A program made the position numbers and the translations under genes. DNA of 64,000 nt from IMG/VR virus record IMGVR_UViG_3300002052_000213, positions 1 through 64,000 of that record. The stretch is one strand, 5' to 3'. Below are positions 1,316 through 39,243 of the stretch, piece by piece. The notes below the pieces were generated by a model. That model was not told the origin of the DNA, did not search any database, and was given only the letters and a program-made list of their open reading frames with translations. Position 1 is the stretch's first letter; every line of letters begins with the position of its first letter. The stretch comes from a virus.

Positions 1316-1852
1316 ATGGCAATTTGTAAAATATGTGTTTCTCCTAACGTACATGAGTACGAGAAATTATATTTAGAGGATAAATATAGCTATACTGAAT
1401 TATGGAAATATGCTAAAATACAAAAGAATGAAGACTTACCTTATGATAGCTTTAGAAGACATATGAAGCTTCATGTAAAAGCTATTATAGAAGCTGGTAA
1501 AGAATTTAGTGATTTGCAAGTAGTAAAGATGAAGGAAGAAATAGACAAGACTATAGAAATATCTAAAAACCTTAGAATGACTCTAGAACCCTTACAATCC
1601 TTCTTACAAAATAAAATAGAAAATTTAAGTGATGAAACGGATAGACAATATCTTGAAGTATTGTTTAGAGGACTATCTGAGATTAGACAGATATACAAAT
1701 TAATATTAGAACATGAAGAACAATTAGATATGGGACCACAGATAGATAAAGATAGATTATATGATCAAGTAATAGAATGTTTAATAGAAGCTGAAATACC
1801 AGACATTTACATATTCAAATTTTCTAAAGCATGGGAACAAAGAGAGAAATGA
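1316..1852 (+). CDS. Probable terminase small subunit with zinc-binding N-terminus
   Basis: 178 residues starting at an ATG preceded by GAGG nine bases upstream. The N-terminus carries C4 and C7 and later H49 and H53 (RRHMKLH), a likely CCHH zinc site; the rest is predicted helical and charged. It lies directly before, and overlaps by four bases (ATGA), the terminase large subunit, the usual place of TerS. A TerS binds viral DNA and loads the packaging motor. Function is inferred from position and general form, since TerS sequences diverge strongly. Confidence 0.6.
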   Translation: MAICKICVSPNVHEYEKLYLEDKYSYTELWKYAKIQKNEDLPYDSFRRHMKLHVKAIIEAGKEFSDLQVVKMKEEIDKTIEISKNLRMTLEPLQSFLQNKIENLSDETDRQYLEVLFRGLSEIRQIYKLILEHEEQLDMGPQIDKDRLYDQVIECLIEAEIPDIYIFKFSKAWEQREK

Positions 1853-4227
1853 TTAATATAAAATTACCAGTAGGATTAACACTACAAGAGAGATTAACTT
1901 TATTGAAATGGAGAGATCCTGTAGTATTTTTTACTGATGTAACTGGAGATCCTCCATTTAAATATCAGGAACAGATATTGAAAGAAATGCCTGACTTAAA
2001 TAAATTAAGATTCCTAATAACTGCTGGTGGAAATACTGGTAAAACTAGATTATTAGCAGATATAGGATTATGGTCTCCTACTATATTAGGTCCAATGATA
2101 ATGGGAAGATCATATTCTGTAATTATAGAGTCTGGATCTCAAGAACAATCTAGGATATTATATGATTATCTAAAGACTTGGATAGAGAGTAATGATTTAA
2201 TAAGTAAATTAGTAAAAGGTGAACCTCTTAAAACTAATACAACATTTAAAGATGGTTCTTTCATAAAGGCTCTTCCTGCATCTTGGAAGTGCTATGATGA
2301 AAAAACTGAAATATTAACTAAAAGTGGATTTAAAAAATATAATGATTTAAAAATGGGAGAGTGTGTAGCTACATTAAATAAAGAAGGATTTCTAGAATGG
2401 CAAGTACCAATAAAATATTTTTCTTATAATTATGATGGACAAATGCTCAAAATAAAAAATAGAACTATGGATATTCTTGTTACATGTAATCATAAAATGT
2501 TAGTTGCTAGAAATCATTCTGATAACTTTGAGTTAATTGAAGCTAATAGTCTTCCAATAGGTGCTAAATTTAAAAGAACTGCTAAATGGAAGGGAAAGAA
2601 GAGAGAATATTTTATTATACCTTCGTACTCTGCCGATCATGGAACTTATATTGAAGAATTCTCAAAGAAAAAAATACCAATGGAAATATGGGTAGAGTTT
2701 CTTGGTTATTATCTTTCTGAAGGAAGTGTAAAAAAGGATAAATGCCATACTATAATTTCACAATCTAAGTTAATAAATCATAATAAATTTGAGAAAATTA
2801 AAAAATGTTTAGATAAGCTTCCGTTCTCATATTCAATATATAAAGAACAGGAATTTTCTATTAATTCCTCACAGCTTGGTCATTTCCTATATCCAACAAT
2901 GGGTTCTTATAATAAGAAGATACCTAAAGAAATAAAAGAATTGGATACTATATATCTTGAAATACTTTTAGATGCTTTAATGCTAGGTGATGGAGTAACT
3001 AATGAAAAACAAAGATGGTATTCTACTGTTTCAGAACAATTAAGAGATGATGTTATGGAAGTAGCTCTTAAGTTAGGGATAGGTAATTCATATTCTTTAA
3101 TTGAGGAAAGAACAAATAAATATGGAAATAAATGTTCTAAACATTTTAAGATTTATCTACATAGACACAAAAATTCATATTATAAAGGACAAAAAGAGGT
3201 AGTAAATTATAATGGAAAAATATGGTGTCTTGAGGTTCCAAATAACACTCTGTTCATTAGAAGAAATGGTAAAACTCTATGGTCTGGTAATTCAATTTAT
3301 GGACAACATAGTGATTTACTTATAATAGATGAAGCTGTAGAGGCAGGTGGAGATCTTATAGATGATAGTATAAGAGTAGTTGGTACATCTCTACATAATG
3401 GAAAAAGTGCAGGTAGAATAATTCTATCTTCTACTCCTCATAATTACATGAGTAAATTTGTTACTATGTGGGAAGATCATAAAAAGTACAATAATTGGCT
3501 AAGAAGAAGTTGGAGTGCTTTAGCTTGTCCTCTATATACTGAAGAAGTTATAGAAGAAGCTAAGAAGAAAGGTAAAATGTATTATGATATTTTCATATTG
3601 GGTAAGCCATATCCACTTATGGGAACTATGATAAATATAGAAGATTTAAAGGATGCAACTAAAGGAAATCCTATATATGTATACAATAAAGAATTTGGAT
3701 ATACTGTTATGGGATTAGATTGGGGATTTGCTCCTGATCCTACTGCTTTAGTTATTATTCAAAGAAATGATAGACAAATAAGAGTATTTTACTATAAAGA
3801 TTACCTTAGAGAAGATCCAGAGAAGATGTGTGACACTATACAAACTTTAGTTAGAAATTATAATGTAGAAAGAATATTTAGTGATAGTCATAATAAACAT
3901 ATGAATGCCTTGCTAAGGAAAAGATCAGTTCCGTTATTTGAAGTATCATTTAAAGGAGAGAAAGGATTGCTACAAGCTAATCTTACTTCATTATTTGAGA
4001 ATGGAGTTATAAAAATACCAGAAGAATATATTAGATTAATATGGCAAATAAGGCAATACACCTATGAAACTAAAGGTGGAGATGATTTCGTAGATGCTCT
4101 TATGTTAGCATGTAAAGATTATAAAACTCAGTATTTAACAGATGATATATATTATAAGAAATTCTCCAGTAGAAAGAAAAAGAAAAGTGGATATCAACAA
4201 TGGGTAGAAAAATATTCTAAACGATAG
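1849..4227 (+). CDS. terL: Terminase large subunit interrupted by an intein
   Basis: ATP-driven DNA-packaging motor and nuclease. The extein has Walker A TAGGNTGKT (about residues 57-65), Walker B LLIIDEA (about 490), and a RuvC-like nuclease with GLDWGFAPDPTA, a second acidic site at IFSDSHNKH and a third at GGDDFVDAL. A 334-residue intein (148-481) sits between the ATPase motifs; the spliced protein is about 458 residues, normal for the family. I chose the ATG at 1849 because it overlaps the TerS stop as ATGA; an ATG at 1831 is also in frame but lacks a ribosome site. The gene ends one base from the converging fibre gene. Confidence 0.95.
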   Translation: MINIKLPVGLTLQERLTLLKWRDPVVFFTDVTGDPPFKYQEQILKEMPDLNKLRFLITAGGNTGKTRLLADIGLWSPTILGPMIMGRSYSVIIESGSQEQSRILYDYLKTWIESNDLISKLVKGEPLKTNTTFKDGSFIKALPASWKCYDEKTEILTKSGFKKYNDLKMGECVATLNKEGFLEWQVPIKYFSYNYDGQMLKIKNRTMDILVTCNHKMLVARNHSDNFELIEANSLPIGAKFKRTAKWKGKKREYFIIPSYSADHGTYIEEFSKKKIPMEIWVEFLGYYLSEGSVKKDKCHTIISQSKLINHNKFEKIKKCLDKLPFSYSIYKEQEFSINSSQLGHFLYPTMGSYNKKIPKEIKELDTIYLEILLDALMLGDGVTNEKQRWYSTVSEQLRDDVMEVALKLGIGNSYSLIEERTNKYGNKCSKHFKIYLHRHKNSYYKGQKEVVNYNGKIWCLEVPNNTLFIRRNGKTLWSGNSIYGQHSDLLIIDEAVEAGGDLIDDSIRVVGTSLHNGKSAGRIILSSTPHNYMSKFVTMWEDHKKYNNWLRRSWSALACPLYTEEVIEEAKKKGKMYYDIFILGKPYPLMGTMINIEDLKDATKGNPIYVYNKEFGYTVMGLDWGFAPDPTALVIIQRNDRQIRVFYYKDYLREDPEKMCDTIQTLVRNYNVERIFSDSHNKHMNALLRKRSVPLFEVSFKGEKGLLQANLTSLFENGVIKIPEEYIRLIWQIRQYTYETKGGDDFVDALMLACKDYKTQYLTDDIYYKKFSSRKKKKSGYQQWVEKYSKR
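2290..3291 (+). mobile_element. Intein with LAGLIDADG homing endonuclease inside terL
   Basis: The intein begins with a Cys (CYDEKTEIL, splicing block A) and ends with LWSGN before an extein Ser. Block B appears as ILVTCNHKMLV with the TxxH pattern. Two LAGLIDADG-type motifs are seen, FLGYYLSEGSV and LLDALMLGDGV, so an intact homing endonuclease is likely. The penultimate residue is Gly, not the usual His, which is known in some inteins and can slow C-terminal cleavage. Insertion is just before the Walker B strand, a conserved site, as homing elements prefer. Confidence 0.9.
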
Positions 4228-6593: not shown

Positions 6594-7859
6594 TTAATTA
6601 CCTGCTACTATTACTGTAGGTGCAACAGAAAATGAACCAAAGTGTATTTTATAACCCATTGGTAAATACATCATAACAGCACTTGTTAAGTCTTTTACAA
6701 TTGTATTGTCGTTATAATCCATTACTGTTATACTTACACCAGTTCCTCCTATTGATGTTATGTAAGAATCTATATGTTGTATTTCATATGTTCTATCAGC
6801 AGTAGGAACAGTATTTGTACCTATTAAGTTTATTCCATATGGAATGCTACTATCTGAGAATGGAGTAGATATAAGACCAACTGGATTAAATCCTATATTA
6901 TTATATATTCTAGCATCAATAGGACCAATTACTTCTATTGCACCATTTAAATTTTTTATAAATTCATTCGATGAAATAAGATTAAGTGAATGACCAGTAT
7001 AAAAAAATCTTACATTATGATCAGCAATTGGACTATAGAAAACATTTCCTGAAATTACATTATTTCTATTATTTGCATCTAAATGAATATCAGAATATAC
7101 ACCACTATTATCCCAACTACTATTGCTGAAAACATTTCCTATAATACTATTTCTTGAAGAATTAGCTAATGTCAGTCCTCTACCTCTATTTTTATAAAAA
7201 TAATTTCCTATAACTGCTGAATCACCAGCAAACATACCAAGACCATGATGATTATACAAAAATTTATTTCCTATAATTCTCACATCACTTCCTCCATCTA
7301 TTCTGACTCCATATGCACTAGTAGAAAAGGAGGAATGCTCAAATATATTATTTGTTATTCTCCAAGCCCATGCTATATTATCTTCTCTTATTAAACATTC
7401 TCTTGCTTTATCAAAAAAAACATCATTTATATAAATATCTTTTAATCCACCTAACTTATCATATACTATATTTCCACTTGTTTGATTTACTCCGTTACCA
7501 ATAATTGTCATACCTTCTAACGTAAAACAATAAATTGCTGTAGCTAAAGTATATTCAAACATATTGCAATTTGCATTATTTTCCATTTTTAAAAATGTAT
7601 TCTCCATTCCTTCACCAGTTATTCTTACTGCATCTACTATTGTCATAGGAGTACTGACCATATATGGATCATTTTGTTCTACTTTTCTAAGGTGTATATG
7701 CCCACCTTCAGAAAAAGAAGTAGCAATAGAATTTATTATACCTGAAAATATAGTTCCCTTGTATTCTACTTTACCACTATCTCCAGATTTAGCGTAATAT
7801 TTAGAATTTTCCTTATGTATAATCCATGAAGATTCTGATTTAATTATTCCATATCCCAT
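6594..7859 (-). CDS. Tail fibre protein with right-handed beta-helix
   Basis: 421 residues, one base from the next fibre gene. Residues about 70-330 have repeated turns with Asn and Gly (ITNNIFEHSSF, IIGNKFLYNHHG, VIGNYFYKNRGRG, SIIGNVFSNSSW), the pattern of parallel beta-helix (NosD/pectate-lyase-like) fibre shafts. The C-terminus is a smaller beta-rich domain. Likely part of the host-recognition apparatus. No catalytic site is obvious. Confidence 0.7.
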   Translation of the reverse strand: MGYGIIKSESSWIIHKENSKYYAKSGDSGKVEYKGTIFSGIINSIATSFSEGGHIHLRKVEQNDPYMVSTPMTIVDAVRITGEGMENTFLKMENNANCNMFEYTLATAIYCFTLEGMTIIGNGVNQTSGNIVYDKLGGLKDIYINDVFFDKARECLIREDNIAWAWRITNNIFEHSSFSTSAYGVRIDGGSDVRIIGNKFLYNHHGLGMFAGDSAVIGNYFYKNRGRGLTLANSSRNSIIGNVFSNSSWDNSGVYSDIHLDANNRNNVISGNVFYSPIADHNVRFFYTGHSLNLISSNEFIKNLNGAIEVIGPIDARIYNNIGFNPVGLISTPFSDSSIPYGINLIGTNTVPTADRTYEIQHIDSYITSIGGTGVSITVMDYNDNTIVKDLTSAVMMYLPMGYKIHFGSFSVAPTVIVAGN

Positions 7860-9256: not shown

Positions 9257-9478
9257 TTATTTACACCTGAATTCTGTCATTTCTAAAGTTTTTTTCTTTT
9301 CTTTATCTTTTAATTCCTCTATTAAAAGATTACCAAATGTAAGTTTTTGTATAGGTATATCTGAATCTTCACATATTAATATTAATTCTTTTCCTTTTCT
9401 AATTCCCTTTATATATTTTAATCCTAAAATATCAGCAATTTCTTTTGGTGTATATTCTCTTATTTTTATTACTTTCAA
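9257..9478 (-). CDS. Small tail-region protein of unknown function
   Basis: 73 residues. The start is TTG at 9478, overlapping the stop of the tail-hub gene (TTGA) with AAGGAG at good spacing; longer frames to 9523 run into the hub gene. The sequence YTPKEIADILGLKYI has a helix-turn-helix-like look, and the C-terminus is charged. Its place between hub and fibres suggests a tail assembly role, which is inference only. Confidence 0.55.
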   Translation of the reverse strand: MKVIKIREYTPKEIADILGLKYIKGIRKGKELILICEDSDIPIQKLTFGNLLIEELKDKEKKKTLEMTEFRCK

Positions 9479-12156
9479 TATCCTATAGCTCCTTGAAAGT
9501 AAGATACTATAACAGTTCCCCAATTACCATATGCATTATAATTATTTACAAGAATTTGATGCATTAATCCCTCTAAAGGAAGATAATTAGTTGAAGTAAT
9601 ACTTCCTTCTAAATTATTATCAACATAAAATTCTGCAAGAGGAGTATTTGGATAATATCTACATTCTAATTTATATTCTTGCCCATAATTAAAAGTTGTT
9701 AGAGGAAACATAGCACCAGTTTGTTCACATCTATTTCCATATGAATAAAGAGTTCCATCATCAGAAAAAATAAATCCAAGTCCACATCCATTCCAAGTAG
9801 TTATACCTAACATAACAACTACTTCAGTATCATCATTAGTCACTTCTGCTACTGAGCAAAAAATTAAATCTTTATCTGTTGGAACAATAGTGTGTAAACT
9901 TTTGAGGAAATTAGATTCTCCTCCTCTAGTTTTAATTAATAATCTACCAGAACTGAAAAATACTGAGCCATCTGGACTATATTCACTACTAGAATATCCA
10001 TCTTTTGATTCTCCAAACATTCCAAATTTCTTTCCTCCAAATCCCCACATTGGAGCTGATACACCTTCATCTAAAGACCACCAATCAAGTAATTCACCTC
10101 TTCCTTTAGTAATGGCAGATACATCAAATATTTTTCTCCATGCTTCAATATTCCAGAAGATATGTTCCATTTGCATTTGGAATTGTCCTAAAAGCTTTTC
10201 TATTGAAGGTAAATATCTACCAGACAACTCTAAGTTAGTAGTTAAATTAAAATCTCTAAGGGTATGATTAATTCTTCTTAAGTCAATAGTAGAGAATATA
10301 TCACCAATTATAAATGCTACTCTGCATCCTAAACTAGCTTCAAAGCTTCTTGTAGTTATTAAATTAGTTACATTTTCTATTGGATACTTATAAGCTTCAA
10401 CTACTAATGAAGATGCTAAACTACAAAGTTCATCACTTCCCAATTTACGTCTTATCATATCTGGTCCTTCTCTAATACCAAAGCTACCTATAGATTCATC
10501 ATCTCCATATTTATATGAATAATGAGTGGAAAAACTCATTCCATCAATACTAAAATAAGATGCTTTATCAGTAGTAGATAAAGGAGAATTAACTATAATT
10601 CTAACTTTAAATATATTTGACCAATCTGGATTTCCAGTAGCAACAAATTCTCCTCTTCCATATTTTTCTGTGAAAGGTATTTGGAATTTTTCTAATTTGT
10701 CTGAGCTTTTCCATGCTAACCAAGGATAGTAAATATTTGGTGGACGAAGTCTTACAATAAATCCACCACTTTCTAACCAAGAGTAAGTGTAATAATCAGA
10801 ATCAGTAGAATAAAAAATACAACTCATGTCTAAATCTTCAATATCAGCAGAAAGAGAAGGATAACAAGTTATTTGTTTGTATCCTTCAAGATATCCACCA
10901 TATTCTAAGTTTAATGGAGTAGGAAATGTTCTTTCTATCCATAAACTATTTTCATTTCCTTCTCCCCTTAAATAATAATCTCCTTTTATTCTTGCAGATC
11001 CACCTAATGCAGATATACTTATATATCCTGACCAGTTATCAGTACTTTCTGTATATTCATTATCACTTCCTATTTTCTTTCCTTCAGGTGGTCCTTTCCC
11101 AATAATACTAATAGAATTTATCATTCTTTCAGAATCAGACTCGTAGTTGAAACTCATAGCATTAGAACCAACATTATAACTTTGAAGTCTACTTCCTTTA
11201 GGAAATGCATGTAAGTCTTTACCAAAATCTACATAGAAATCCCAATCTACTCTATTTTGTGTAGGATTGGCAATATCTTCTCTTAGGATATCTCCAACAT
11301 ATCTTCCACCTTCTTCATGTTTAATTGATATTGTATGATCACTTTCTGTTACATTATAAGTAGTAAGTAAACCAAGATTTTTTAATGATGTAGTAATAGT
11401 ATCTATTACATCATCTATTTCATTTTTAACAAATCCAGTATGTTTCCTTTCAAATAGATATTTACCATATCCCTCACATTCTGTTTCATGCCATGTAGCT
11501 GTCTTACCAGTTTTAATTTCTCTATTTAATTTGACTTTACCAGTAAATTGTTTAGTGAAACTACCATTCTTTCTTAACCATATTTTAACATGACTATTCA
11601 TTAATGGGAGAGGTTCTTCATAATCATATTTAAATGTAGCATCATCGAATCCTTCTGTTAATATTCTATTTATTTCAATTTCTGTAGGATATAATCTTCT
11701 AGTTGTAGCATTAGATATAATTACATAATCTATTTCAGCTTTTTCGTTTACATCTCCCCAAATTTGTATCCATATCCTATCTGGAGAATAACCACTTCCA
11801 AATATATCAAGTGTAGCATATCCAGATGAAGTTAAGTTTACCTTTTCAACATCGTCAATACCATCTACAAGACCAATAGTAATAGAATCTGCAGTTAAAC
11901 TTGAACATTTCATAATACAATATCTAAAGTTATCAGCATCATAAGCAAGTGATGGAAAATATTTGTTTATAGCTGCAATATGTTTTCCTCCAGAAATATG
12001 TGTAGCTATTAGAGTTCCTATATCACCATTGCTATAATAATCACCATAATCTATATTCCATCCTATAGGTGCTCTTCTATTATCTAAAGTTCTCATTCCA
12101 TCATCTTCAATATGTACTTGTTCATATATTTCTACAGAACTAGAAACTGTTAACAT
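9475..12156 (-). CDS. Tail hub/tip protein with C-terminal concanavalin-like domain
   Basis: 893 residues, just after the tape measure gene, where siphovirus-type distal tail or hub proteins lie. Residues about 150-420 resemble gp37/gp27-like baseplate hub proteins (LPLMNSHVKIWLRKNG, a VDDI/GDILREDI region). The last 200 residues (from about 690) look like a LamG/concanavalin sugar-binding domain (DWWSLDEG, LECRYYPNTPLAEFYVDNN). So it may both close the tail tube and touch host glycans. Family naming is by general pattern, not a search. Confidence 0.65.
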   Translation of the reverse strand: MLTVSSSVEIYEQVHIEDDGMRTLDNRRAPIGWNIDYGDYYSNGDIGTLIATHISGGKHIAAINKYFPSLAYDADNFRYCIMKCSSLTADSITIGLVDGIDDVEKVNLTSSGYATLDIFGSGYSPDRIWIQIWGDVNEKAEIDYVIISNATTRRLYPTEIEINRILTEGFDDATFKYDYEEPLPLMNSHVKIWLRKNGSFTKQFTGKVKLNREIKTGKTATWHETECEGYGKYLFERKHTGFVKNEIDDVIDTITTSLKNLGLLTTYNVTESDHTISIKHEEGGRYVGDILREDIANPTQNRVDWDFYVDFGKDLHAFPKGSRLQSYNVGSNAMSFNYESDSERMINSISIIGKGPPEGKKIGSDNEYTESTDNWSGYISISALGGSARIKGDYYLRGEGNENSLWIERTFPTPLNLEYGGYLEGYKQITCYPSLSADIEDLDMSCIFYSTDSDYYTYSWLESGGFIVRLRPPNIYYPWLAWKSSDKLEKFQIPFTEKYGRGEFVATGNPDWSNIFKVRIIVNSPLSTTDKASYFSIDGMSFSTHYSYKYGDDESIGSFGIREGPDMIRRKLGSDELCSLASSLVVEAYKYPIENVTNLITTRSFEASLGCRVAFIIGDIFSTIDLRRINHTLRDFNLTTNLELSGRYLPSIEKLLGQFQMQMEHIFWNIEAWRKIFDVSAITKGRGELLDWWSLDEGVSAPMWGFGGKKFGMFGESKDGYSSSEYSPDGSVFFSSGRLLIKTRGGESNFLKSLHTIVPTDKDLIFCSVAEVTNDDTEVVVMLGITTWNGCGLGFIFSDDGTLYSYGNRCEQTGAMFPLTTFNYGQEYKLECRYYPNTPLAEFYVDNNLEGSITSTNYLPLEGLMHQILVNNYNAYGNWGTVIVSYFQGAIGY

Positions 12157-12158
12157 TT

Positions 12159-15100
12159 TTAATATCTACCTCCTACAGAAAACATGTCTTTAGTTATTAT
12201 CCTTTTAATTTCATTAGCTAATATACTTATATCTTTCTCTTCTCTTATAACTGGATAATTTATAGTTATAAATATATTTTGTCCTTGAGGAGCTGTCATA
12301 GGTTCTACTGGTTTTACATATACCGAATTAGGAGATCCAAAATCACTTCTCATTCCCTTTAATTCATCAATTTCCTTTTTAATTTCACTCTTTAATTCAG
12401 TAAATTCCCCTACCCAGAAAGGTCTAGTATTTTCTGCTATTTGCTCTAACCATCTTAAGTAAGGTTGATATGTAGATATAAATGATAAATATTGAATCTC
12501 TGCTCCACCACTTTCTACTTCCGTTGATATATCTCCTACAAATTCATCTGCCATTAAGGAACTAGTTCTATATCTATTTGCTGTTGCATTTCTCAACGTC
12601 ATAGATTCTCCTACCAATCTAGTTGTATCAAGAGCAGTAAACGATAAATCTTCTATACCTGTTAACATTAATTTATTTTTTCTACCTTCAATATCAAATT
12701 CTCTAGATACCAATTCTTGAGTTACAACTTGTGTTAACATAGGTAATTCTGGAATTGTAGTAGGTATTAATATTTGAGTTATCACTTGTTCCTTATCTAA
12801 TATTTCAGGTATTGTTGTAGGAATCAATATTTGTACTATTTCTTGTTCTTTATCTTCAACTTCTGGAATAGTCACTAAATCTAATTCTTGTCTTATCTCC
12901 TGAGTTAAAACTTCTGGTTGAGGTATAAATGCTGGATTTAAATATTGAGTTATAGTTTGTCTTAAATCTCTTACTTCAGGTAGCATTCCTATTTCTACTA
13001 ATCTTTGTATAATCAATTGTTCCATATTCTCTGGAACTGGTATTTCAGCTTCTATAAGAGTTTGTTCTATAGTTTGCATAAGGTTATTTGGAGGAAATAT
13101 TCTTACTTCTATCAATCTCTGTTTTATATCTTGGGTAATATCTTCTGGAATAGGAATTTCAACTGTATGTAATATTTGTTCTATTATTTGTTGTTGATTA
13201 CTTACTGGAGATATTTCTATAGGTTCTAATGTTTGCACTATACTTTGTGTTAAATCATCAACCATAGGAATAAATACTTTTATCAATTCTTGAGATATTA
13301 TCTGTTTCTGATCCTCTACTTCTGGAATTCTAGCTACTTTCAAGTTTTGAACAATAGTTTGTGTCATATCCTCTACGTTTGGGATATCTACTTCATTAAG
13401 AATTTGTGTTATAGTTTGTGTTATATTTTTAATACTAGGTATTTCAATTGTTTGTAACTCTTGAACTATTCTCTGAGTAACATCTTCTAATTCTATCTCT
13501 GGAATTTCAGCTTGTATAAGTTCTTGTGTAATTATTTGTTCCATGTTTCTTGGTTCCATAATGTCTACTTCAACTAAAGATTGAATTATCTGTTGAGTTA
13601 AATTCTCCACTCTAGGTATTCTAGTTTCTATTAATTCTTGTGTTATAAGTTGATTCATGTTTCTAATATTTGGTATTTCTACCGTTTGTAATTGTTGAAC
13701 TATAATTTGAGTTAAATCTTCTATTTCAGGTGTCTGTACTTCTATTAGCTCTTGTCTAATGATTTGTTTTAAATCTTCTACTCTTGTAGGTCTAACTTCT
13801 CTTATTTCTTGTATTATTCTCTGAGTTAAATCTGGTACATTAGGTATTTCAGCTTTATCTAGAACCTGAGTAATTCTCTGTCTTATATCTTCAACTCTAG
13901 GAATATCTACTTCTTCTAATCTTTGTCTAATTTCTTGTACAATGTTATCTACTATTGGAATCCTAGCTTCAATTAATCTTTGAGTAATAGTTTGGATAAT
14001 ATCTCTAGGTTCAGTAATATCTGCTTCATCTAATTCTTGAGTTATACTTTGAATTAATTCTTTAGGAATAGGAATCTCTACTGCATCTAATACTTGTGTA
14101 ATAATTTGAGTTTTATCTCTGATTCTAGGTATTTCCGTTTCTCTTAATATCTGTGTTATATATTGTATTTTATCTTCTATAGTTGGATATTCTGCTAATG
14201 TAAGTTCTTGTATAATTTCTTGATATTGAGCACTCGCTTCAGGTATATCTACTGGTATAAATTCTTGTGTAATTCTCTGTCTTTGATCACTTATAGTTGG
14301 TACATTAACTCTTATTAGTTCTTGTTCTATTATTTGACGCATATCTTCTACATCAGGTATAGGAACTTGTATTAATCTTTGTGTAATAGTTTGTACTATA
14401 TCTTGTATTTCTACTTCTGGTATCTCTGCTGTTCTTAAATGTTGTCTTATTATTTGATCTACATTCTCTACTGTTGGAATCTCCACTTCTCTAAGTTCTT
14501 GAATTATAGTCTGTGTCATGTCTTCTTTAACAGGTATTTCTATCTCTTCAAGTAATTGATAAATAGTGTAAGTTTGATCTTCAACTATAGGTATATCAGG
14601 CATTACTCTACCTAGAGTTTGGAATATGAATTGAGTTTGATCTTGTACTTCTGGAATTTCATAAGGAACTAATACTTGAAGTATTTCTTGATGAGGTACT
14701 TCAGGTATTTGTGTTTCTATTAATTCTTGATATATATTTTGAGTTATATCTTGTAACTCGGGAACTTCTATTTCTTCCATTATTGGAAATATTGTTATTA
14801 CTTTCTCTATATCTCTAATTTCAGCTAATTCTAGTCTTTTTACTTCATCTCCTAAACTCTTTACTTCAGTTGTACTTTCTTTCAAAGCACTTACTAAAGA
14901 ATCTTCAATAAGAATATCTTCCCAACTTTTTGTAGTTCCTATTCCTTGCTCTATTTCTTTCATCATATTTCTCATTTCTTTTTTCATTCTTTCCATTTCA
15001 CTAGTTGCATAAGCTTGTGCTATTGCTAATGATATAAATGTTCCAACTAAGAATGTTCCAATTCCTAAAACTACAGACATCGCAAATGCAGCTCCCATAG

Positions 15101-16832
15101 AAGAAGTTTGTAAGTAATTCATCATACCACTTAAAATACCAGTTTTTCCTGCTGCTACAATTGCTGAATCCCCTGCTTTATCTTCCATAAATGCAGTAAG
15201 ACTTACTTGAACTGCTGCTCCTGTTGCTTGCTTACCAGTAAGTCCTAATGTTCCACCAAAAAAAGCTTCTTTCATAGATGCTGAAATTGCACTATCTCCT
15301 GCCATGCCTTGTAAGATACTTAATTTCATTAAGAAATCCATTACAGTAAGTCCTGTTCTTATCATTGTTGGAAATGCTCCAAATATTAGCATTCCCCAAG
15401 ACATAGCATACTGGAATGCACTTTGTCTAGCTGATTCTAACGTAGCTTTTAATGCAAACTGAGCTTCCTTTACTCTAATTGTTGCTTGTCTAGCTTCTTC
15501 TGATCCTGCTCCATATTCAAACAATATTTCATTATATTCTCTTTGAGCTTCAGATAAACTCATGGCAGATCTAGTTAAAGACCAAGATTGTCTTTCCATT
15601 TCTACCTCTCTTCTAGTCATTCTAGCTATGCTCATAGCAGTAAACATCATTCCTAATCCAGCCCAAAATATGTCTCTAGTAAATTCTCTCATTACTACTC
15701 CAGTAGCACCTATACTTGCCATAAATCTTCTTTGTACTTCAGATATTTCTCTAAGTCTTATTCTCATAAATCCTAGTTGAGCTATCATTTCTTTTGCAGG
15801 TTCTACTCCACCAGTTAATAATGCTCTCCTGAAATCTCTAAACTCTGTAGCTCCTATACCTACTTGATTCATAGTTATCTTAAAAACATCAGACCAGTAT
15901 TTCCATATTTGACTAGATGTAAATCCAGCTTCATTTAATTTATCTAATGTTCCTTGAATCATTCCTACAGCATCACTAACAGTAGCTATAGGTCTATGAA
16001 ACTTTTCTAATTCGGTAAGAAAAACTTTAAGTCCGAATACTCCTTCTTCTTTAAATATCTTAATTAAGTCATTAGCTACTGGAGAAGCTATTTCCATTTG
16101 TTTCATCATATTTTTAAGTGAGCCACCTAGATATTCCATAGTCTTATTAAACTCTAATCCAGCTACACTAACAGATCTTAAAACTCTAAATATTGTTGTT
16201 ACTCCTTGAGAGAAAGATGTTATAGGTTGATTTAATGCTTTATAACTTTCAAGTAGAACAGCATTTCCTTCTGCATCTTTCTTTATTGATTGATTTAATA
16301 TGTTAACTCCTTGTTCTAACGATATAAGATCTTTATTAAAAGCTGTAAAAGCATTTGAAGTATAACCAGTTCTTAATCTTAATTTTTCCATAGCTTCTAC
16401 TGCTGGACCAAATAACTCTTCCCATGCTCTCATCTCTTCAAGATTTTTTCTAAGTTTTGGAACAAATTTATCGAATGATAATCCACCTAGACGTAATGTT
16501 TTGATATGAGCTAACATCTTTTCACTTGCATTCTCTATAATTTCTAAATATTTAGTCCAGTGTCTTCCAGCAAATTCAGTATTAGTTACTGTGTCTTTAG
16601 CTAATTCATTTATTCCTGCAGCTAAAGCTGGATCAAGTTTAGGTCTAGTAAATCCTTCTATAATAGGAGTTGCACTTCTAGCTACTTTAGCTAAATTAGA
16701 TACTCCAGTACTAACTTTTGCACTAACTGTATTAATTTTCTCTAGACTCTTAGCTAATTCACCTACTTCCTCAGCACCTGTTACACTAGCTAATATTTTT
16801 ACATTTATTACAACATCTTCAGGAGTACTCAT
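12159..16832 (-). CDS. Tape measure protein with about 36 copies of a 19-residue repeat
   Basis: 1557 residues. It sits between the tail chaperone genes and tail hub, and has the usual hydrophobic stretches (about residues 385-420, 480-500, 590-625) of a tape measure, which sets tail length and helps DNA entry. Residues about 689-1376 are some 36 tandem units of the form IPxVEDxTQxIxQxLxxVE, nearly all 19 residues. I start at the ATG at 16832, seven bases behind GAGG; the ATG at 16838 is too close to that site. The DNA copies are diverged, so the pattern is kept by selection on the protein. Confidence 0.9.
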   Translation of the reverse strand: MSTPEDVVINVKILASVTGAEEVGELAKSLEKINTVSAKVSTGVSNLAKVARSATPIIEGFTRPKLDPALAAGINELAKDTVTNTEFAGRHWTKYLEIIENASEKMLAHIKTLRLGGLSFDKFVPKLRKNLEEMRAWEELFGPAVEAMEKLRLRTGYTSNAFTAFNKDLISLEQGVNILNQSIKKDAEGNAVLLESYKALNQPITSFSQGVTTIFRVLRSVSVAGLEFNKTMEYLGGSLKNMMKQMEIASPVANDLIKIFKEEGVFGLKVFLTELEKFHRPIATVSDAVGMIQGTLDKLNEAGFTSSQIWKYWSDVFKITMNQVGIGATEFRDFRRALLTGGVEPAKEMIAQLGFMRIRLREISEVQRRFMASIGATGVVMREFTRDIFWAGLGMMFTAMSIARMTRREVEMERQSWSLTRSAMSLSEAQREYNEILFEYGAGSEEARQATIRVKEAQFALKATLESARQSAFQYAMSWGMLIFGAFPTMIRTGLTVMDFLMKLSILQGMAGDSAISASMKEAFFGGTLGLTGKQATGAAVQVSLTAFMEDKAGDSAIVAAGKTGILSGMMNYLQTSSMGAAFAMSVVLGIGTFLVGTFISLAIAQAYATSEMERMKKEMRNMMKEIEQGIGTTKSWEDILIEDSLVSALKESTTEVKSLGDEVKRLELAEIRDIEKVITIFPIMEEIEVPELQDITQNIYQELIETQIPEVPHQEILQVLVPYEIPEVQDQTQFIFQTLGRVMPDIPIVEDQTYTIYQLLEEIEIPVKEDMTQTIIQELREVEIPTVENVDQIIRQHLRTAEIPEVEIQDIVQTITQRLIQVPIPDVEDMRQIIEQELIRVNVPTISDQRQRITQEFIPVDIPEASAQYQEIIQELTLAEYPTIEDKIQYITQILRETEIPRIRDKTQIITQVLDAVEIPIPKELIQSITQELDEADITEPRDIIQTITQRLIEARIPIVDNIVQEIRQRLEEVDIPRVEDIRQRITQVLDKAEIPNVPDLTQRIIQEIREVRPTRVEDLKQIIRQELIEVQTPEIEDLTQIIVQQLQTVEIPNIRNMNQLITQELIETRIPRVENLTQQIIQSLVEVDIMEPRNMEQIITQELIQAEIPEIELEDVTQRIVQELQTIEIPSIKNITQTITQILNEVDIPNVEDMTQTIVQNLKVARIPEVEDQKQIISQELIKVFIPMVDDLTQSIVQTLEPIEISPVSNQQQIIEQILHTVEIPIPEDITQDIKQRLIEVRIFPPNNLMQTIEQTLIEAEIPVPENMEQLIIQRLVEIGMLPEVRDLRQTITQYLNPAFIPQPEVLTQEIRQELDLVTIPEVEDKEQEIVQILIPTTIPEILDKEQVITQILIPTTIPELPMLTQVVTQELVSREFDIEGRKNKLMLTGIEDLSFTALDTTRLVGESMTLRNATANRYRTSSLMADEFVGDISTEVESGGAEIQYLSFISTYQPYLRWLEQIAENTRPFWVGEFTELKSEIKKEIDELKGMRSDFGSPNSVYVKPVEPMTAPQGQNIFITINYPVIREEKDISILANEIKRIITKDMFSVGGRY
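12703..14765 (-). repeat. 57-bp coding repeat array in the tape measure gene
   Basis: About 36 units encoding IP-(x)-[VI]-x-[DN]-x-x-Q-x-I-x-Q-x-L-x-x-x-x. A few units differ by one or two residues (for example those containing IPEVEIQDIVQ and IPEVPHQEILQ). The total span is about 36 times 57 bp. Units are similar in protein but not identical in DNA. Confidence 0.9.
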
Positions 16833-16851
16833 ATTCATCCCTCATATTATA

Positions 16852-17429
16852 TTATATTCTCCTAGTTTTAACTTTTGTCTTTCCTCTACCAGAAGGTCTT
16901 CTTCTTTGTTCTTGAGTTTTACTCTTTAATTTAGCCTCTTCAGTCTTTATCATCATGTTTAACCATGCTATCTGAAGATCTGTTCTACTTAAGAAATCTT
17001 CTTTAGCTTGTTCCCAAGAAAAATCTTTAAGCTTTAAGTATTGGTAGAAATCTTTACTTAAATTGCCCTCTGCTGTTGTAAAAAATCTCTCATAGACTTT
17101 CTAGTTTTCTCTGTTAACTTAGTAACTCTTTGGCTCCAATCCCAAGTCACAGCTTCTAAGATTGCATCTATTTTTGGAGAAGGACAATCTAAATATTCCT
17201 TGTATGTAATTTTAGGTTCTACAAGCATTTTAAGAGCCAATCTATTAGATATTTCTGTGGCTTGTTCAATGTCACTCATATCTTTCCATAAGGGACTTTT
17301 CATTGCTTCTTGTCTAACTTCTATTTTATCTCTAGTTGTGGGATCTCTAACTTTTACAGTAATATCTAAACTCTCTATTGGTAGATCTCTAGGTTCATTA
17401 GAGAGTAATTCTTGTAAGGTTATTTCCAT
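16852..17429 (-). CDS. Frameshifted tail assembly chaperone (gpGT-like long form)
   Basis: If ribosomes slip back one base at 17085-17079, the 117 residues up to DFL continue in the -1 frame as TTAEGNLSKDFYQYLK and end with KTKVKTRRI at the TAA at 16852, a 192-residue protein. The extension has no good start of its own and normal viral codon use. This is the G/GT arrangement known between tail tube and tape measure genes in tailed phages. The extension is helical, then very basic. Confidence 0.75.
17058..17429 (-). CDS. Tail assembly chaperone, short form (gpG-like)
   Basis: 123 residues, between tail tube and tape measure, the classic chaperone place. The start is the ATG at 17429, three bases behind the tail tube stop. 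The sequence is mixed alpha/beta with a helical C-terminus (SMRDFLQQQRAI). The stop lies 18 bases after a slippery heptamer, so most ribosomes should make this form and a minority the longer one. Confidence 0.75.
   Translation of the reverse strand: MEITLQELLSNEPRDLPIESLDITVKVRDPTTRDKIEVRQEAMKSPLWKDMSDIEQATEISNRLALKMLVEPKITYKEYLDCPSPKIDAILEAVTWDWSQRVTKLTEKTRKSMRDFLQQQRAI
17079..17085 (-). promoter_or_regulatory. -1 frameshift slippery site T TTT TTA
   Basis: In the frame of the chaperone gene the codons read GAT TTT TTA, so the heptamer is in correct X XXY YYZ register. After a -1 slip the frame stays open for 75 codons. Confidence 0.75.
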
Positions 17430-17432
17430 ATT

Positions 17433-18299
17433 TTACCACTGAGCTATACTGGTGTCGTCAACTATTTGAATACCTCTAGTTGCTGCTGTTGATGGCATAG
17501 CTATCCAAGTGAACTCAACTTCATATACATCATGTCCAGTGAATTCATCTGGTAGTTCATTAAACCATATAGAGTTACAGTATATTGATAAACTACCTCT
17601 TCCTAAGCCCATAACAGTTATAGTAAGTTCATGTCCACCCTGAGTAAAGTATTGGATATCTGCTTGTCCACATGTAATTCCACCAGTAACTTCCAATCTT
17701 TGTTCTCGAATCTTAGTTGGTTGTTTTCCTTGTCCACATGCATATCTTGATTCTAGGTTGTTATTAAATTCTACATATCCACTTTGTACTTCAGTTAAAG
17801 CATTACCATCTAATTGTACAATTACAGATGCTCCTGTCATAGCTTCTACAGACCAATCAGTATCTCCAGCTACTGCTATAGTTTCAGCTATAGTTCCTAA
17901 CATTTCCATTTCATAAGTAACGAATTCACCTGCTGAAAAATTAATTCTTAATCTGTCACACTTAGCTCCATGTATAGTTAAACTATCTGATTCTGATTCT
18001 GCACTTACAGTACATTCTGGAATATCTGTTAGAACAGTAATTGTACTTGGATTAGCATCTAACCATGCAGGATTAACACTTCCTAAAGCCAAATAAAATG
18101 GTTTACCAGACACAAGTTCTGCTTCTATTCTTGCAGTATATTCTTTAGCTCCTTCAGTAATGTCAACATCAAATCTTGTTCCAGATGCTACTTCCTGCTC
18201 AATTAGATTAAATACTTCACTTGCTTCAAATGATATTGGAAAGTTTACTATAGTTCCACCTAGTCCTGCTGCACCAGTAATACTAACTTTTCTTGTCAT
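17433..18299 (-). CDS. Major tail tube protein
   Basis: 288 residues, beta-rich, with an own TATA box and a strong GAGGAG ribosome site, fitting a highly expressed protein. It sits directly before the chaperone pair. The protein has a GAAGLGGTI start and repeated short beta strands; Cys residues (CGQGKQ, TCGQAD, YCNSIW) occur. The C-terminal strand (YEVEFTWIAM) is typical of tube proteins. Assignment rests on gene order and general form. Confidence 0.7.
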   Translation of the reverse strand: MTRKVSITGAAGLGGTIVNFPISFEASEVFNLIEQEVASGTRFDVDITEGAKEYTARIEAELVSGKPFYLALGSVNPAWLDANPSTITVLTDIPECTVSAESESDSLTIHGAKCDRLRINFSAGEFVTYEMEMLGTIAETIAVAGDTDWSVEAMTGASVIVQLDGNALTEVQSGYVEFNNNLESRYACGQGKQPTKIREQRLEVTGGITCGQADIQYFTQGGHELTITVMGLGRGSLSIYCNSIWFNELPDEFTGHDVYEVEFTWIAMPSTAATRGIQIVDDTSIAQW

Positions 18300-27908: not shown

Positions 27909-28600
27909 TTTTCTTGTGTCTCCAACCAACTCTTAATTAATTTAAGTTTGCTTTCCTTTAATTCTCTATCTAAGTCTTCATCTTTACCTTTTATTTCCTT
28001 TTCTATAGCTTTTCTTTCCTTCATTTTTTCTTCCACATATAATTGTAATATAGATTCTCCTACAATATCCTTTATAGTTAAATCTTTCTTTTTTGGTTTC
28101 TTGATTTCTGGTATTTCTATAAACTTTTCTTCATCTGGTTTATATTTTTTAAAATACCATTTAGCATCAGATCCTCTAGCAAATAGATAATCTCCTTTTA
28201 TTTTATTTCCATTAAATCTAAATATTTTCAAAGTTGGATTATTTTCTATAAGACTTACTTCACCATAATCTATAACATCAATTGTAGAAGACATATCTCC
28301 TACTTTACGTTTTAAATTATTTCCTTCTTTAATAAACCATTTCTCAGGTTCATAAGATAATTTTGGTAACACTAAAGAACTATCATTTTCTAATATATCA
28401 CTCCATAAATTAAACTCTAGTAACTGATCTGGTGCTATTCTTATCCTCAAATCCCAATGAGGTTGTTTTTCTTCTAGAGTATGCTTATGATATACAAATT
28501 CTAATTTATCTAATTCTTCAGAAGATAATTTATTAATATAATCAGGTATATCATTCTCTAATTTCTTAGAAGTGTCAATCATGTCTTCAGTTATCTTCAT
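27905..28600 (-). CDS. LigD-type 3'-phosphoesterase domain protein
   Basis: 231 residues from the ATG at 28600 (GAGGAG seven bases before). Residues about 35-150 match the phosphoesterase domain of bacterial/archaeal LigD: FVYHKH with His, then PHWDLRIR with His, Asp and Arg, and late KIKGDYLFARGS followed by WYFKKY. In LigD this domain trims 3' ends during end joining. The C-terminus is a Lys/Glu-rich helix. It overlaps the ligase-like gene, suggesting they work together. The LigD match is by motif, not by search. Confidence 0.65.
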   Translation of the reverse strand: MKITEDMIDTSKKLENDIPDYINKLSSEELDKLEFVYHKHTLEEKQPHWDLRIRIAPDQLLEFNLWSDILENDSSLVLPKLSYEPEKWFIKEGNNLKRKVGDMSSTIDVIDYGEVSLIENNPTLKIFRFNGNKIKGDYLFARGSDAKWYFKKYKPDEEKFIEIPEIKKPKKKDLTIKDIVGESILQLYVEEKMKERKAIEKEIKGKDEDLDRELKESKLKLIKSWLETQEK

Positions 28601-30215
28601 AATCTTCTCCTCTATTACTAGATTGTCCTTCATAATAATAACCTTTTAGGTAATGACATTTAAATATATTTGCTAAATCACATGATATTGGAAATTCTAT
28701 ATTTTCTTTACTTAAATTACACCAAGATTCTCTATAATATGGACATGTTTCTAACTGTAGAGATTCTATAAATTTAATATTTGTTAATTTACTCCATTCT
28801 TCAGTTTTATTATTAGCAATTTTAATAGGATATTTACTATCTGCTACTTTAGCTATCATATTTTTTGATATTTTATATAACTCAGTAACATTAGATGTTA
28901 ATAGATTAGGAGATTCACAAGCACAGGAACTACGTACATAATGTAAGAATCTAGAATTTTCAGGTATTACATCAGGTATTTTATTCCATCTCTCATAATA
29001 ACCTTTATTGTTTAAAGATTCTCCATCTAAATATAAGATATCATGTACATGAAATACCATACAATTTTCTTGTTCTGGAGATATCTTTTCTAAGATATCT
29101 TTATGAAGTTCTTCACAAATAGATGATTTCATTTTTGCTGACTTTACTATTTTTTTATTACAGTTATATAATACCATTTCAGAATCTAATATAAAATTAT
29201 GATCTATACCCATCAATTCATTAATTACATTAGGTATTAAAGAAGAAATATCTCTTTCATCTTCACAGAATATTCCTATTTTATCTCCTTCTTTATGAAT
29301 AGTAAATCTTTTGCCTTTATAATCATTTTGTATTATTATTCCTCTATCCAAATATTTACTAGCCCATACTTTATAGAAAGTGTTATAATTTGAAAATTCA
29401 TTCTTATTACCAGTTTTAGTTTTTAGTACATCAAATTTCATAAATGGTTTAATCTCAAAAATTTTAGGCTCTTCTATACTTTGTTCCTGTTTAGAAGTTT
29501 TAAATAATCCATGTTGAAACAAAGGAATATTATCTCCTTTATATATTCCATTAGGATCAAATATTACATTTATCATGTTAGATAACCAAGAAGGTTCTAT
29601 ACTTTTTATAGCATATATGACTCTAGGATCTACTTCTCTTTTAAATATTAAATCTATTCCTCTAATTTTAGATGTTTTTCCTTTGTTTACTATATCTCCA
29701 CTTATATATGCTTCCCAAGGTTCTCCTTTAATTGCTACTGAAGAAGGAAAAGATTTCAGTACTTCTTCTAGAGTTACATATTCTCCTAATGGTTCTTCGA
29801 TATAAGAATCTACTTCATCAATGTCAAAATGTGGATATCCTCTATTTTCTAATTCTTCTTTAACTTTTATGTGTATATCATACATTTTATTAGCATGAGA
29901 GTATGCATGTAATATAATTAATTCGTCTAGAGTTGCTTCTTCAGTATTTTTCTTAGTTCCAAATACTTTAGGAATTATAGCTTCTATAGCTATTGAATCC
30001 ATTAATTCTTGTAACATATGATGACTAATAGGTTTAGTTTCGTCTATTCCTCTTTTTCTAATAGTAGCATAAAATACACTCCATCCACCTTGACATCCTC
30101 TAATAGAAGTTCCATCTGTAAATTTTCTAGTTACTTTCTTAGGATTTCTTGCACAATATTTCGGATTATTTACCATACTTCTAGCCATATTTTTGAATGA
30201 AGCATGTATTGGCAT
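28587..30215 (-). CDS. Inactive-looking ATP-ligase-fold protein with a nucleotidyltransferase-like segment
   Basis: 542 residues. About 240-430 follow the ATP-dependent ligase pattern: a motif I region reading QNDYKGKRFTIH, then ILDSEMVLY (motif III) and HVHDILYLDGESL (motif IV). In active ligases motif I is E-x-K-Y-D-G-x-R with the catalytic Lys; here K and D are exchanged (DYKG), so adenylation is doubtful. Around 160-190, YISGDIVNKGKTS and GIDLIF recall a small nucleotidyltransferase. The C-terminus holds a Cys cluster. Coupled to the LigD-type phosphoesterase in a virion operon. Confidence 0.6.
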   Translation of the reverse strand: MPIHASFKNMARSMVNNPKYCARNPKKVTRKFTDGTSIRGCQGGWSVFYATIRKRGIDETKPISHHMLQELMDSIAIEAIIPKVFGTKKNTEEATLDELIILHAYSHANKMYDIHIKVKEELENRGYPHFDIDEVDSYIEEPLGEYVTLEEVLKSFPSSVAIKGEPWEAYISGDIVNKGKTSKIRGIDLIFKREVDPRVIYAIKSIEPSWLSNMINVIFDPNGIYKGDNIPLFQHGLFKTSKQEQSIEEPKIFEIKPFMKFDVLKTKTGNKNEFSNYNTFYKVWASKYLDRGIIIQNDYKGKRFTIHKEGDKIGIFCEDERDISSLIPNVINELMGIDHNFILDSEMVLYNCNKKIVKSAKMKSSICEELHKDILEKISPEQENCMVFHVHDILYLDGESLNNKGYYERWNKIPDVIPENSRFLHYVRSSCACESPNLLTSNVTELYKISKNMIAKVADSKYPIKIANNKTEEWSKLTNIKFIESLQLETCPYYRESWCNLSKENIEFPISCDLANIFKCHYLKGYYYEGQSSNRGEDYEDN

Positions 30216-30547: not shown

Positions 30548-31195
30548 TTATACCTTCTTTTTAATATATTTATCTAGAAGTATTTTAGTATTATGTAAGT
30601 TAACTTTGAGTTTGTCATTTCCTAATGGTATATTTAGAGTTTTTTTAACATTACTATTATAATACGTTATATTCTCAATTTTAAGCATATAATTAGGATT
30701 TCCCATATTTCCTATATATGTTTCACTAGTAGTCCAACCACTTATATAATTTCTCTTAAGGAAATATGTTATTGTCCAAGTTTTTTTAGCTAATCCGAAA
30801 TAATTTAATTCTTCTGTGATAAATGCATATCCTTCAAAATGTCTTCTCCAAGAATAATATTCACCAAATTTAGTATAAAGTCTTACTCCTAGATAAGCCC
30901 TTTTAGGAAATTCAAATGGACCTATTGTACATGTATTTTGTAAATTCTCCTCTCCTACAGTGCTTTTGTAAACAACTGCAACTGGTTCTCCATCAGTAAT
31001 TTCTGTTTCAGTAATAGCATCAATATCGTAAATAAATACTCTTATTCCTAGATAAACTGTTAAATAACCATACTGTGTATGTGCACTATATAATTGATCA
31101 TGATTACTTATATCTAGAAGATATTTACCCCAAGTAGAAAAATCATGTAATTCACCTGTAAAGTATCTAGTTTCAGAATTAGTTTCTTCTACCAT
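30548..31195 (-). CDS. Hypothetical virion-operon protein
   Basis: 215 residues; the ATG at 31195 is preceded by GTGATC, part of the archaeal ribosome site, so I prefer it to the GTG at 31204. The protein is beta-rich and aromatic (GEYYSWRRHFEGYAF, TWTITYFLKRNYISG) with a basic C-terminus. No family is recognised. The location suggests a minor virion protein. Confidence 0.6.
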   Translation of the reverse strand: MVEETNSETRYFTGELHDFSTWGKYLLDISNHDQLYSAHTQYGYLTVYLGIRVFIYDIDAITETEITDGEPVAVVYKSTVGEENLQNTCTIGPFEFPKRAYLGVRLYTKFGEYYSWRRHFEGYAFITEELNYFGLAKKTWTITYFLKRNYISGWTTSETYIGNMGNPNYMLKIENITYYNSNVKKTLNIPLGNDKLKVNLHNTKILLDKYIKKKV

Positions 31196-31221
31196 TTTGA
31201 TCACTTATATTTAAGTTTAAG

Positions 31222-31233
31222 TTATTTATATAC
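31222..31233 (-). promoter_or_regulatory. Possible TATA box
   Basis: GTATATAAATAA on the minus strand, about 30 bases before the ATG at 31195. It overlaps the end of the upstream gene. Confidence 0.35.
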
Positions 31234-31912
31234 TTTTTAACTTTAATATATTTTTTATAAATGGAGGAAGACGTATTCCAGAACCAATTCTTATATAATC
31301 AATATGTTCTTCGGAATATGAATCAGTATATATTACTATTTTACCATCATTAGAAGTTAATGGAAGTAGTAAATTATAGCTCCATATCTTTACTCCATTT
31401 CTATATATAGTAGTAACATCATTGTCACTATCTATTATAAAAGACCAAATATAGAATTTTGTTGTATCTGTATTGATGTAAAAATTAATAAAACTTCCTC
31501 CAGAAATTATAACAGATATACGATCAGAATATATTCTAATCGAAATAGTATGTACGCCATTATTGAATATGAAAGCTATATGTTTTGATATATTAATAAT
31601 GTCGCATTTGAACTTACTTTCTACGGTATAAAGATTTGGTAATCCACCAGTAATAACTTTTTCTCTTGCAACATAGTCTCCATCTGTATATTGATGTAGT
31701 TGACCTACTGGATCTATTTCTGATATTCCACTCCCTTCTGGAAAAGATGATTTAATCCAATTTCCTAATGAATTCCAATTCTCATTAAGTAAATCCCAAT
31801 TCTTGTCTACATTCTTAAATGTTGTTTTACTCTTTAATTGATTTTCTTTAAGTTTTAATTTTAATTGATTTTCATTAAGTTTTAATTTTAAGATATCAGT
31901 AACATTACTCAT
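31226..31912 (-). CDS. Concanavalin-like virion protein with a repeated N-terminal helix
   Basis: 228 residues from the ATG at 31912, preceded by GTGATT. The start holds repeats of LKLNENQLK and LKLKENQLK, perhaps a coiled coil. Residues about 70-215 resemble a LamG/concanavalin lectin fold (YTVESKFKCDI, FYIWSFIIDSDNDVTTIYRNG, DYIRIGSG). Probably a sugar-binding virion part. Confidence 0.5.
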   Translation of the reverse strand: MSNVTDILKLKLNENQLKLKLKENQLKSKTTFKNVDKNWDLLNENWNSLGNWIKSSFPEGSGISEIDPVGQLHQYTDGDYVAREKVITGGLPNLYTVESKFKCDIINISKHIAFIFNNGVHTISIRIYSDRISVIISGGSFINFYINTDTTKFYIWSFIIDSDNDVTTIYRNGVKIWSYNLLLPLTSNDGKIVIYTDSYSEEHIDYIRIGSGIRLPPFIKNILKLKSI

Positions 31913-31958
31913 TTTAATCACTAATATCTACCTAAAATATATTTAATATTCTTTTCTA

Positions 31959-32813
31959 TTACATATATCCTAGATATCTAAGACGTTCCATAATCTTATC
32001 TTTTTGTTTTCTTCCTTCTCTCTCTCCACCAGATGAAACATTTATTTCATATTGAAAATCATCTATTGTTGTAGCTTTACTTTCTATTGGAGTAGTACAT
32101 TGCATACATCCTAAACTTCTAAATCTTAGACCATCTTTAGAGAAATATAAAGGATTAACTGGAACATCATATGTTTTAATATATTCCCAAATATCTAATT
32201 CGGTCCAATGTAATATTGGATGTACTCTTACATGCTCACAATCTTTACCAAAATCTGATTGATATAGTTCCCATAGTTCAGGTTCTACTAAAGACACTAA
32301 AGGAGCATCTCCTTCTTTAAGTTCTTCTTTAGTCTTCTCTCTAACTACTTTCCATTCCCACATATGTGTTCTTGGGCTAAAATAATGTTCTTTACTTCTT
32401 ACTCCTAATTCATCCCATCTTATACCTAAAATAGCAGCATCATAATGTTCTTTCTGAAATAATTCCTTTAATGCCATAGTTTTTCTACACATACAACAAT
32501 TAAATATTCCATCCTCACTTTCTAAATCTATTTCCTTACAATCTTCTTTCTTAGCTATCTTTAGTGGTATATGCCACCCAGAGGATATCATATCTCTGAA
32601 CTTATACATTTGAGGAAATAATTTACCTGTATCTATATGTACTATATCAAATGGTATTTCATAAAACATATTAAATATCATATGTAACAATACTGTACTA
32701 TCTTTACCAGTACTCCATAACATACATGGTTTCTTGAATCTAGCTTTAGCTTCTCTTAGAATAAATTCTGTTTTACTTATTAAACTTTTTAAATCTCTAT
32801 AGTAATATTTCAT
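31959..32813 (-). CDS. cysD: CysD-like PP-loop ATP sulfurylase/PAPS-reductase family protein
   Basis: 284 residues. The PP-loop MLWSTGKDSTVLLHM, HIDTGKLFPQMYKFRD, the ending RFRSLGCMQCTTPIESKATT and EREGR follow CysD, the catalytic subunit of sulfate adenylyltransferase, along nearly the whole length; the family also contains PAPS reductases. CysD makes APS from ATP and sulfate. The GTPase partner CysN, APS kinase and a sulfotransferase are not visible in the window, so it may use host partners or do another nucleotide reaction. It is last in the sugar cassette. Confidence 0.75.
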   Translation of the reverse strand: MKYYYRDLKSLISKTEFILREAKARFKKPCMLWSTGKDSTVLLHMIFNMFYEIPFDIVHIDTGKLFPQMYKFRDMISSGWHIPLKIAKKEDCKEIDLESEDGIFNCCMCRKTMALKELFQKEHYDAAILGIRWDELGVRSKEHYFSPRTHMWEWKVVREKTKEELKEGDAPLVSLVEPELWELYQSDFGKDCEHVRVHPILHWTELDIWEYIKTYDVPVNPLYFSKDGLRFRSLGCMQCTTPIESKATTIDDFQYEINVSSGGEREGRKQKDKIMERLRYLGYM

Positions 32814-37912: not shown

Positions 37913-37923
37913 TTATATCCACA

Positions 37924-39242: not shown

Positions 39243-39243
39243 A

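Follow-up and report, generated by a model that had tools for sequence, protein, structure and literature searches.

Tandem 19-residue units in a viral tape measure protein and in tape measures of unrelated families

In phage lambda, the genes for the tail tube and for the tail chaperones G/GT are followed by the tape measure protein (TMP) gene, and to our knowledge no repeat array has been described in the lambda TMP, gpH. It is an old question whether tape measures are built from units, and the repeats described so far are aromatic ones of 11 and 11-11-18 residues (PMC3271669, PMC5099701). In phage TP901-1, deletion of C-terminal repeats of the TMP shortens the tail by 0.145 nm per residue; loss of many repeats is tolerated, and about 60 C-terminal residues are required (PMC5099701). 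The C-terminal helix of the lambda TMP has been located in the tail tip (PMC10721106).

The virus analyzed here resembles lambda in having a tube gene, a frameshifted G/GT pair, a long TMP gene and distal tail genes. As in TP901-1 and other aromatic-repeat TMPs, its tandem repeats come after a hydrophobic region and are followed by a short C-terminal tail, units are gained and lost, and chaperone genes are found upstream. However, the unit of the array has 19 residues, not 11 or 18, and lacks Trp/Phe markers. Unlike the aromatic repeats, it carries Gln-x-Ile-x-Gln-x-Leu plus Ile-Pro, its conservation alternates rather than being helical, and the motif is common to unrelated TMP families. Searches with the unit gave no Pfam or NCBIfam family above cut-off and no specific PHROG, and a literature search, which covered few subscription papers, found no published description. 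Repeat-bearing TMPs are thus already known, and it is the 19-residue Q-x-I-x-Q-x-L unit itself that we rate as new.

The tape measure gene and its neighbors

The ORF at 12159-16838 of the window (the whole 64,000-nt stretch analyzed), encoding a protein referred to here as P0001, is the tape measure gene by synteny, in agreement with the preliminary description of this DNA. The gene order is tail tube (Phage_tube_2), G/GT with a frameshift, the TMP ORF and a distal tail gene (Table 1). The sequence agagaTTTTTTAcaac contains a canonical -1 slippery heptamer, T_TTT_TTA, precisely at the junction of the G and T frames. The same order was found in a second virus contig (G001), in which the tube protein, the chaperone and the distal gene product show 31%, 41% and 33% identity, respectively, the chaperone gene carries its own T_TTT_TTA, and the TMP (1280 aa) has 29 units. 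The identification of P0001 therefore follows from the gene order and its repetition in this homologous virus. Profile searches of P0001 against Pfam and NCBIfam gave nothing above cut-off, and among TMP profiles the only match was a weak one to phrog_167 (E = 0.008, aa 28-666), unlike the array-bearing TMPs of other phages, which match TMP profiles strongly.

Table 1. Features of the tail region, with positions in the window.
Feature	Position	Strand	Basis
Tape measure protein gene, 1559 aa (P0001)	12159..16838	-	ORF, weak PHROG match, synteny, G001 homologue
TMP core segment, aa 375-497	15348..15716	-	38% identical to G001 TMP over 123 residues
Hydrophobic, transmembrane-like segment, aa 579-609, preceding the array	15012..15104	-	
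Array of about 36 units, consensus E-V-E-I-P-E-V-E-D-L-T-Q-T-I-T-Q-E-L-I	12708..14774	-	Unit cutting, spacing, shuffling
C-terminal strand-helix tail, IFITIN...REEKDISILANEIKR...GGRY	12162..12275	-	Like tails of other array-bearing TMPs
Tail assembly chaperone G, 123 aa	17058..17429	-	ORF; 41% identical to G001 counterpart
Slippery heptamer T_TTT_TTA for the -1 frameshift from G into the T frame	17079..17085	-	Conserved in G001
T part of GT chaperone, -1 frame	16852..17086	-	Frame analysis
Tail tube protein	17436..18299	-	Profile match, Phage_tube_2 (E = 3.3e-15)
Distal tail gene adjoining the TMP gene	9475..12156	-	33% identical to same-place gene in G001

The 19-residue units here and in other tape measures

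When cut at Q.[IV].Q motifs, aa 689-1377 of P0001 yield about 36 tandem units of 19 residues, the number given in the preliminary description; its coordinates for the array, 12703-14765, shift slightly to 12708-14774. The unit length is nearly constant, as had also been noted, with a spacing of exactly 19 in 31 of 36 cases and of 17, 20 or 21 in the rest. In the 720 residues around the array, 29 Q.[IV].Q pairs stand exactly 19 residues apart, compared with a maximum of one and a mean of 0.011 in 2000 shuffles of the same region. In the window, a DNA pattern of three motifs in succession has 24 matches, where 0 are expected. Self-identity of the array at lag 19 is 37%, and its autocorrelation peaks at lags 19 and 38. 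Together with a content of only 15 aromatic residues per 700 and no Trp, these lags bear out the earlier remark that the unit differs from the 11-residue aromatic repeats.

The near-invariant core of the unit is Q-x-I-x-Q-x-L (Gln12 and Ile14 in 34, Gln16 in 35 and Leu18 in 33 of 35 units). The consensus first proposed, IPxVEDxTQxIxQxLxxVE, is correct, but its Pro (Pro5, 28/35), like Ile4 (27/35), is less conserved than this core. The units of P0001 are old. Pairs of units are on average 54% identical in DNA, and the invariant positions are encoded by varying synonymous codons, which indicates that selection rather than recent copying maintains the motif. Two database matches to the repeats were set aside: Pfam NNH3 on aa 1040-1187 (E = 0.00088, below cut-off) was judged a repeat artefact, and a PDB sequence match to the designed circular repeat protein 7rdr (E = 3e-5) was judged compositional.

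Direct protein searches with P0001 detected no relatives in IMG/VR, species genomes, or phage and plasmid records, and the tail tube and capsid used as search bait uncovered no close virus. Relatives were found with the DNA pattern of three Q.[IV].Q motifs set at intervals of 19 residues, applied to viral contigs and species genomes; matches to a loose pattern were mostly low-complexity Gln/Pro proteins and were excluded after reading. The unit is present in P2-like GpT proteins (G006-G008, G002, L047, L161, L149, L152 and L155), in the TMP of a sheath-encoding clostridial prophage (G003; 19 units, every spacing 19) and in further TMPs (G004 and L068). The spacing is exactly 19 in 27 of 28 cases in G001 (29 units) and in all cases in L047 (9 units), G006-G008 (6 units each) and G002 (at least 12 units in this count).

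The bodies of the array-bearing TMPs are unrelated, belonging to phrog_28, phrog_1533, phrog_991, PhageMin_Tail and TIGR01760. The tubes encoded beside them are of the Phage_tube_2, Phage_tube FII and DUF2001 families, with sheath genes beside DUF2001 in G003 and beside FII in G006, and the neighborhoods thus include both contractile tails and a siphovirus-like tube. Where a homologue could be followed over its full length, its array is located after the TMP body and ahead of the C-terminal part. The strand-helix C-terminal tail is common to many array-bearing TMPs, and the P2-like GpT proteins of phages KL3 (Burkholderia) and Alfacinha1 (Acidovorax), the named TMPs closest to that of G002, have a similar tail but lack a 19-residue array at the site where the others carry it. 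Among named relatives of array-bearing TMPs (KL3, Alfacinha1 and KP12), none carried an array, and a taxon-wide search around G003 returned G003 alone.

The 19-residue spacing is specific. With a two-unit DNA pattern at this spacing, 11 of 18 loci fall in TMPs, whereas control patterns at spacings of 20 (57 loci) and 18 (14 loci) gave in-frame matches without a TMP array, in low-complexity proteins and other sequences.

A point against the preferred reading given below is that PHROGs did not recognize some of the ORFs with arrays (L088, L160 and L121) as TMPs. The one at L160:1-2523 (-), in a viral contig, encodes 841 aa with about five Pro-TQxIxQ units in the N-terminal third. The TMP at L161:1669-5334 (-) has a 61-residue super-repeat composed of two 19-residue units and a 23-residue insert. 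One Bacillota contig (SIG201) encodes two proteins of about 700 aa (L110:850-3057 and L123:5395-7488) in which TQTVxQV and EQVVKQV motifs recur at intervals of about 19 residues; the former of the two proteins matched no PHROG or Pfam family.

Conformation, copy number and tail length

Conservation within the unit alternates strictly with every second residue, with a moment of 1.10 at 180 degrees against 0.12 at 100 degrees. Charged residues amount to 0.6% at positions 2, 4, 12, 14, 16 and 18 versus 35% on the alternating face. The constant spacing of 19, the in/out alternation and the uncharged inner positions are all features by which beta-solenoids are recognized in sequences. Structure prediction of several units had been proposed from the start as a check. 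AlphaFold2 placed strands at these rarely charged positions in six units of P0001, with low confidence (mean pLDDT 40). For 14 units of G003 with the C-terminus, it again placed strands there, now as a regular solenoid (mean pLDDT 51.5, array mostly 50-67). The best structural matches of these low-confidence models were the SufB/SufD beta-helix (Z 14.8 by VIA, rmsd 3.0 over 212, for the G003 model) and the beta-solenoid of curli CsgA (Z 9.4), proteins of unrelated function and without sequence match. Curli rungs have about 20 residues and carry Gln ladders; a Pfam scan of the array protein up to E = 1 detected no curlin family, and a Foldseek search with the predicted array gave no match at E <= 0.001 in PDB or BFVD. 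AlphaFold2 also folds random repeats into beta-solenoids (PMC11795689), and for this reason, and because of their low confidence, we give the models limited weight.

From the alternation, together with these models, the unit is probably a beta-strand, solenoid-like element rather than a plain helix. Two facts count against the beta reading: most known TMPs are helical, rising by about 1.5 A per residue, and TMPs in solved tail tips are trimers; three separate solenoids would hardly fit in the tube lumen.

The alternative that survives best, although we consider it rather unlikely, is that each unit forms a short amphipathic alpha helix, running from position 10 to position 2 of the next unit and followed by a Pro linker, so that the array would be a kinked rod serving as an ordinary tape that measures about 1.5 A for each residue, about 28 A for each unit and about 100 nm in all. 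The hydrophobic moment of positions 10-22 is indeed helix-like, peaking at 80-110 degrees in every family, and D/N at position 9 and P/E at positions 7-8 suit a helix N-cap, most strongly in the PEELTQ variant of the unit, which resembles a helix start. Known TMPs are helical, and 0.145 nm per residue fits TP901-1 (PMC5099701). However, helix geometry would place Gln12 and Gln16, invariant and never charged, on the open, solvent side, whereas a strand places them with Ile14 and Leu18. The every-second-residue conservation also speaks against a helix, 19 residues make a non-integer number of helix turns, and regular helix in the array is absent from both AlphaFold2 runs.

A bolder form of the beta reading, which we regard as doubtful, is that the array forms a rod, either beta-solenoid or triple beta-helix, in which Gln residues line up as an inner ladder, and that it is a widespread and undescribed repeat of many TMPs. 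If so, it would break the rule that TMPs are helices at 1.5 A per residue. Such a rod could fold only outside the tube, after exit, which would help to pull the TMP out, and it could reach through the host envelope with a length set in whole units.

The number of units per TMP ranges from 0 to 36. Changes by whole units, which the preliminary description had predicted for relatives, were found in one close pair. The TMPs of G002 and G006 are 83% identical and have the same residues leading into the array, but G006 has 6 units and G002 at least 13, a lower bound given that the G002 array runs to the contig end. The extra units of G002 are recent duplications, in frame and of 38 residues (114 bp), with 79-100% DNA identity within each class. 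The arrays of P0001 and G001 also differ in copy number; when they were compared for a common duplication history, no unit-by-unit alignment was clearly better than the rest (0.415 for the best shift, mean 0.371). A search of plasmids and E. coli genomes gave no copy-number variants of the array.

Our preferred reading, to which we assign a probability of roughly 0.6, is that the array is a modular TMP insert of fixed units, most likely beta, which changes in whole units and contributes to tail length. The insert joins the hydrophobic TMP body to the C-terminal strand-helix tail, and the latter may dock in the tail tip, by analogy with lambda gpH. Each unit would repeat the same structural element, which is most likely of beta-strand type: positions 12-18 would form a strand with Q12, I14, Q16 and L18 on the same face and, after a turn, positions 2-4 a second, short strand, and positions 5-11 would make up a Pro-Asp loop. 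The units may stack or string together, so that the protein would change its length by one or more whole units at a time, as multiples of 57 bp are duplicated in register or lost. By analogy with TP901-1 and lambda, the array would be a length-giving insert just above the tip, and we infer from this a contribution to tail length.

It is also possible that the units bind chaperone. In lactococcal phages, the aromatic repeats have been proposed to be bound by a chaperone that coats the TMP (PMC3271669, PMC5099701), and the units could likewise be docking sites for G/GT, coating the TMP until replaced by the tube. The G/GT pair directly upstream, the frameshift conserved in G001 and the look of an invariant short motif at fixed spacing, as in a repeated binding site, are consistent with this, as is the lactococcal precedent. 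Nevertheless, the same motif occurs beside unrelated tube families, and array-less relatives of the same TMP family (KL3 and Alfacinha1) retain chaperone genes, which makes docking unlikely as the explanation of the array. A neutral, recombination-prone spacer of drifting length, kept only by gene conversion, is very improbable in spite of the 0 to 36 copies among TMPs, the recent duplications in G002 and the tolerance of TP901-1 to losing many repeats (PMC5099701), because units only 54% identical in DNA keep Q12, I14, Q16 and L18 at 94-100% with synonymous variation, and the spacing of 19 persists across unrelated families.

If the array is a modular insert contributing to tail length, its span depends on the conformation: 36 units would extend over about 100 nm as a helix (28.5 A each) but only about 17 nm as a solenoid (4.8 A each), by simple arithmetic. 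It had been suggested that the unit matches a period of the tail tube. Tube rings are 38.5-42.8 A thick (PMC8718954), while 19 residues correspond to about 28 A as a helix or about 4.8 A as a rung. Neither step equals one ring, and thus the match is unsupported; the idea is further opposed by the occurrence of the same unit beside tubes of at least three families, some accompanied by a sheath gene and others not. The TMPs with 6 and at least 13 units in 83%-identical bodies, and the homologues with 29 and about 36 units, offer a natural series for tail length per unit. The step per unit should differ widely among a helix, a beta-solenoid and an extended chain, and micrographs could therefore decide the conformation of this segment.

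Other genes of the window

Downstream of the tail genes, the window encodes a right-handed beta-helix (NosD-like) protein (6594-7859, -), possibly a tailspike. The large terminase (Terminase_6C; 1831-4227, +) contains an intein with a LAGLIDADG homing domain (LAGLIDADG_3). An ATP-dependent DNA ligase (28587-30215, -) and a family B DNA polymerase (52482-54932, -) are also encoded, and a ParB-like gene adjoins that of the polymerase. Finally, the region 31000-42052 (-) carries a cluster of genes for a glycosyltransferase, a DegT/DnrJ aminotransferase and a radical SAM/B12-binding protein, which is suggestive of virus-borne modification of surface sugars or lipids.
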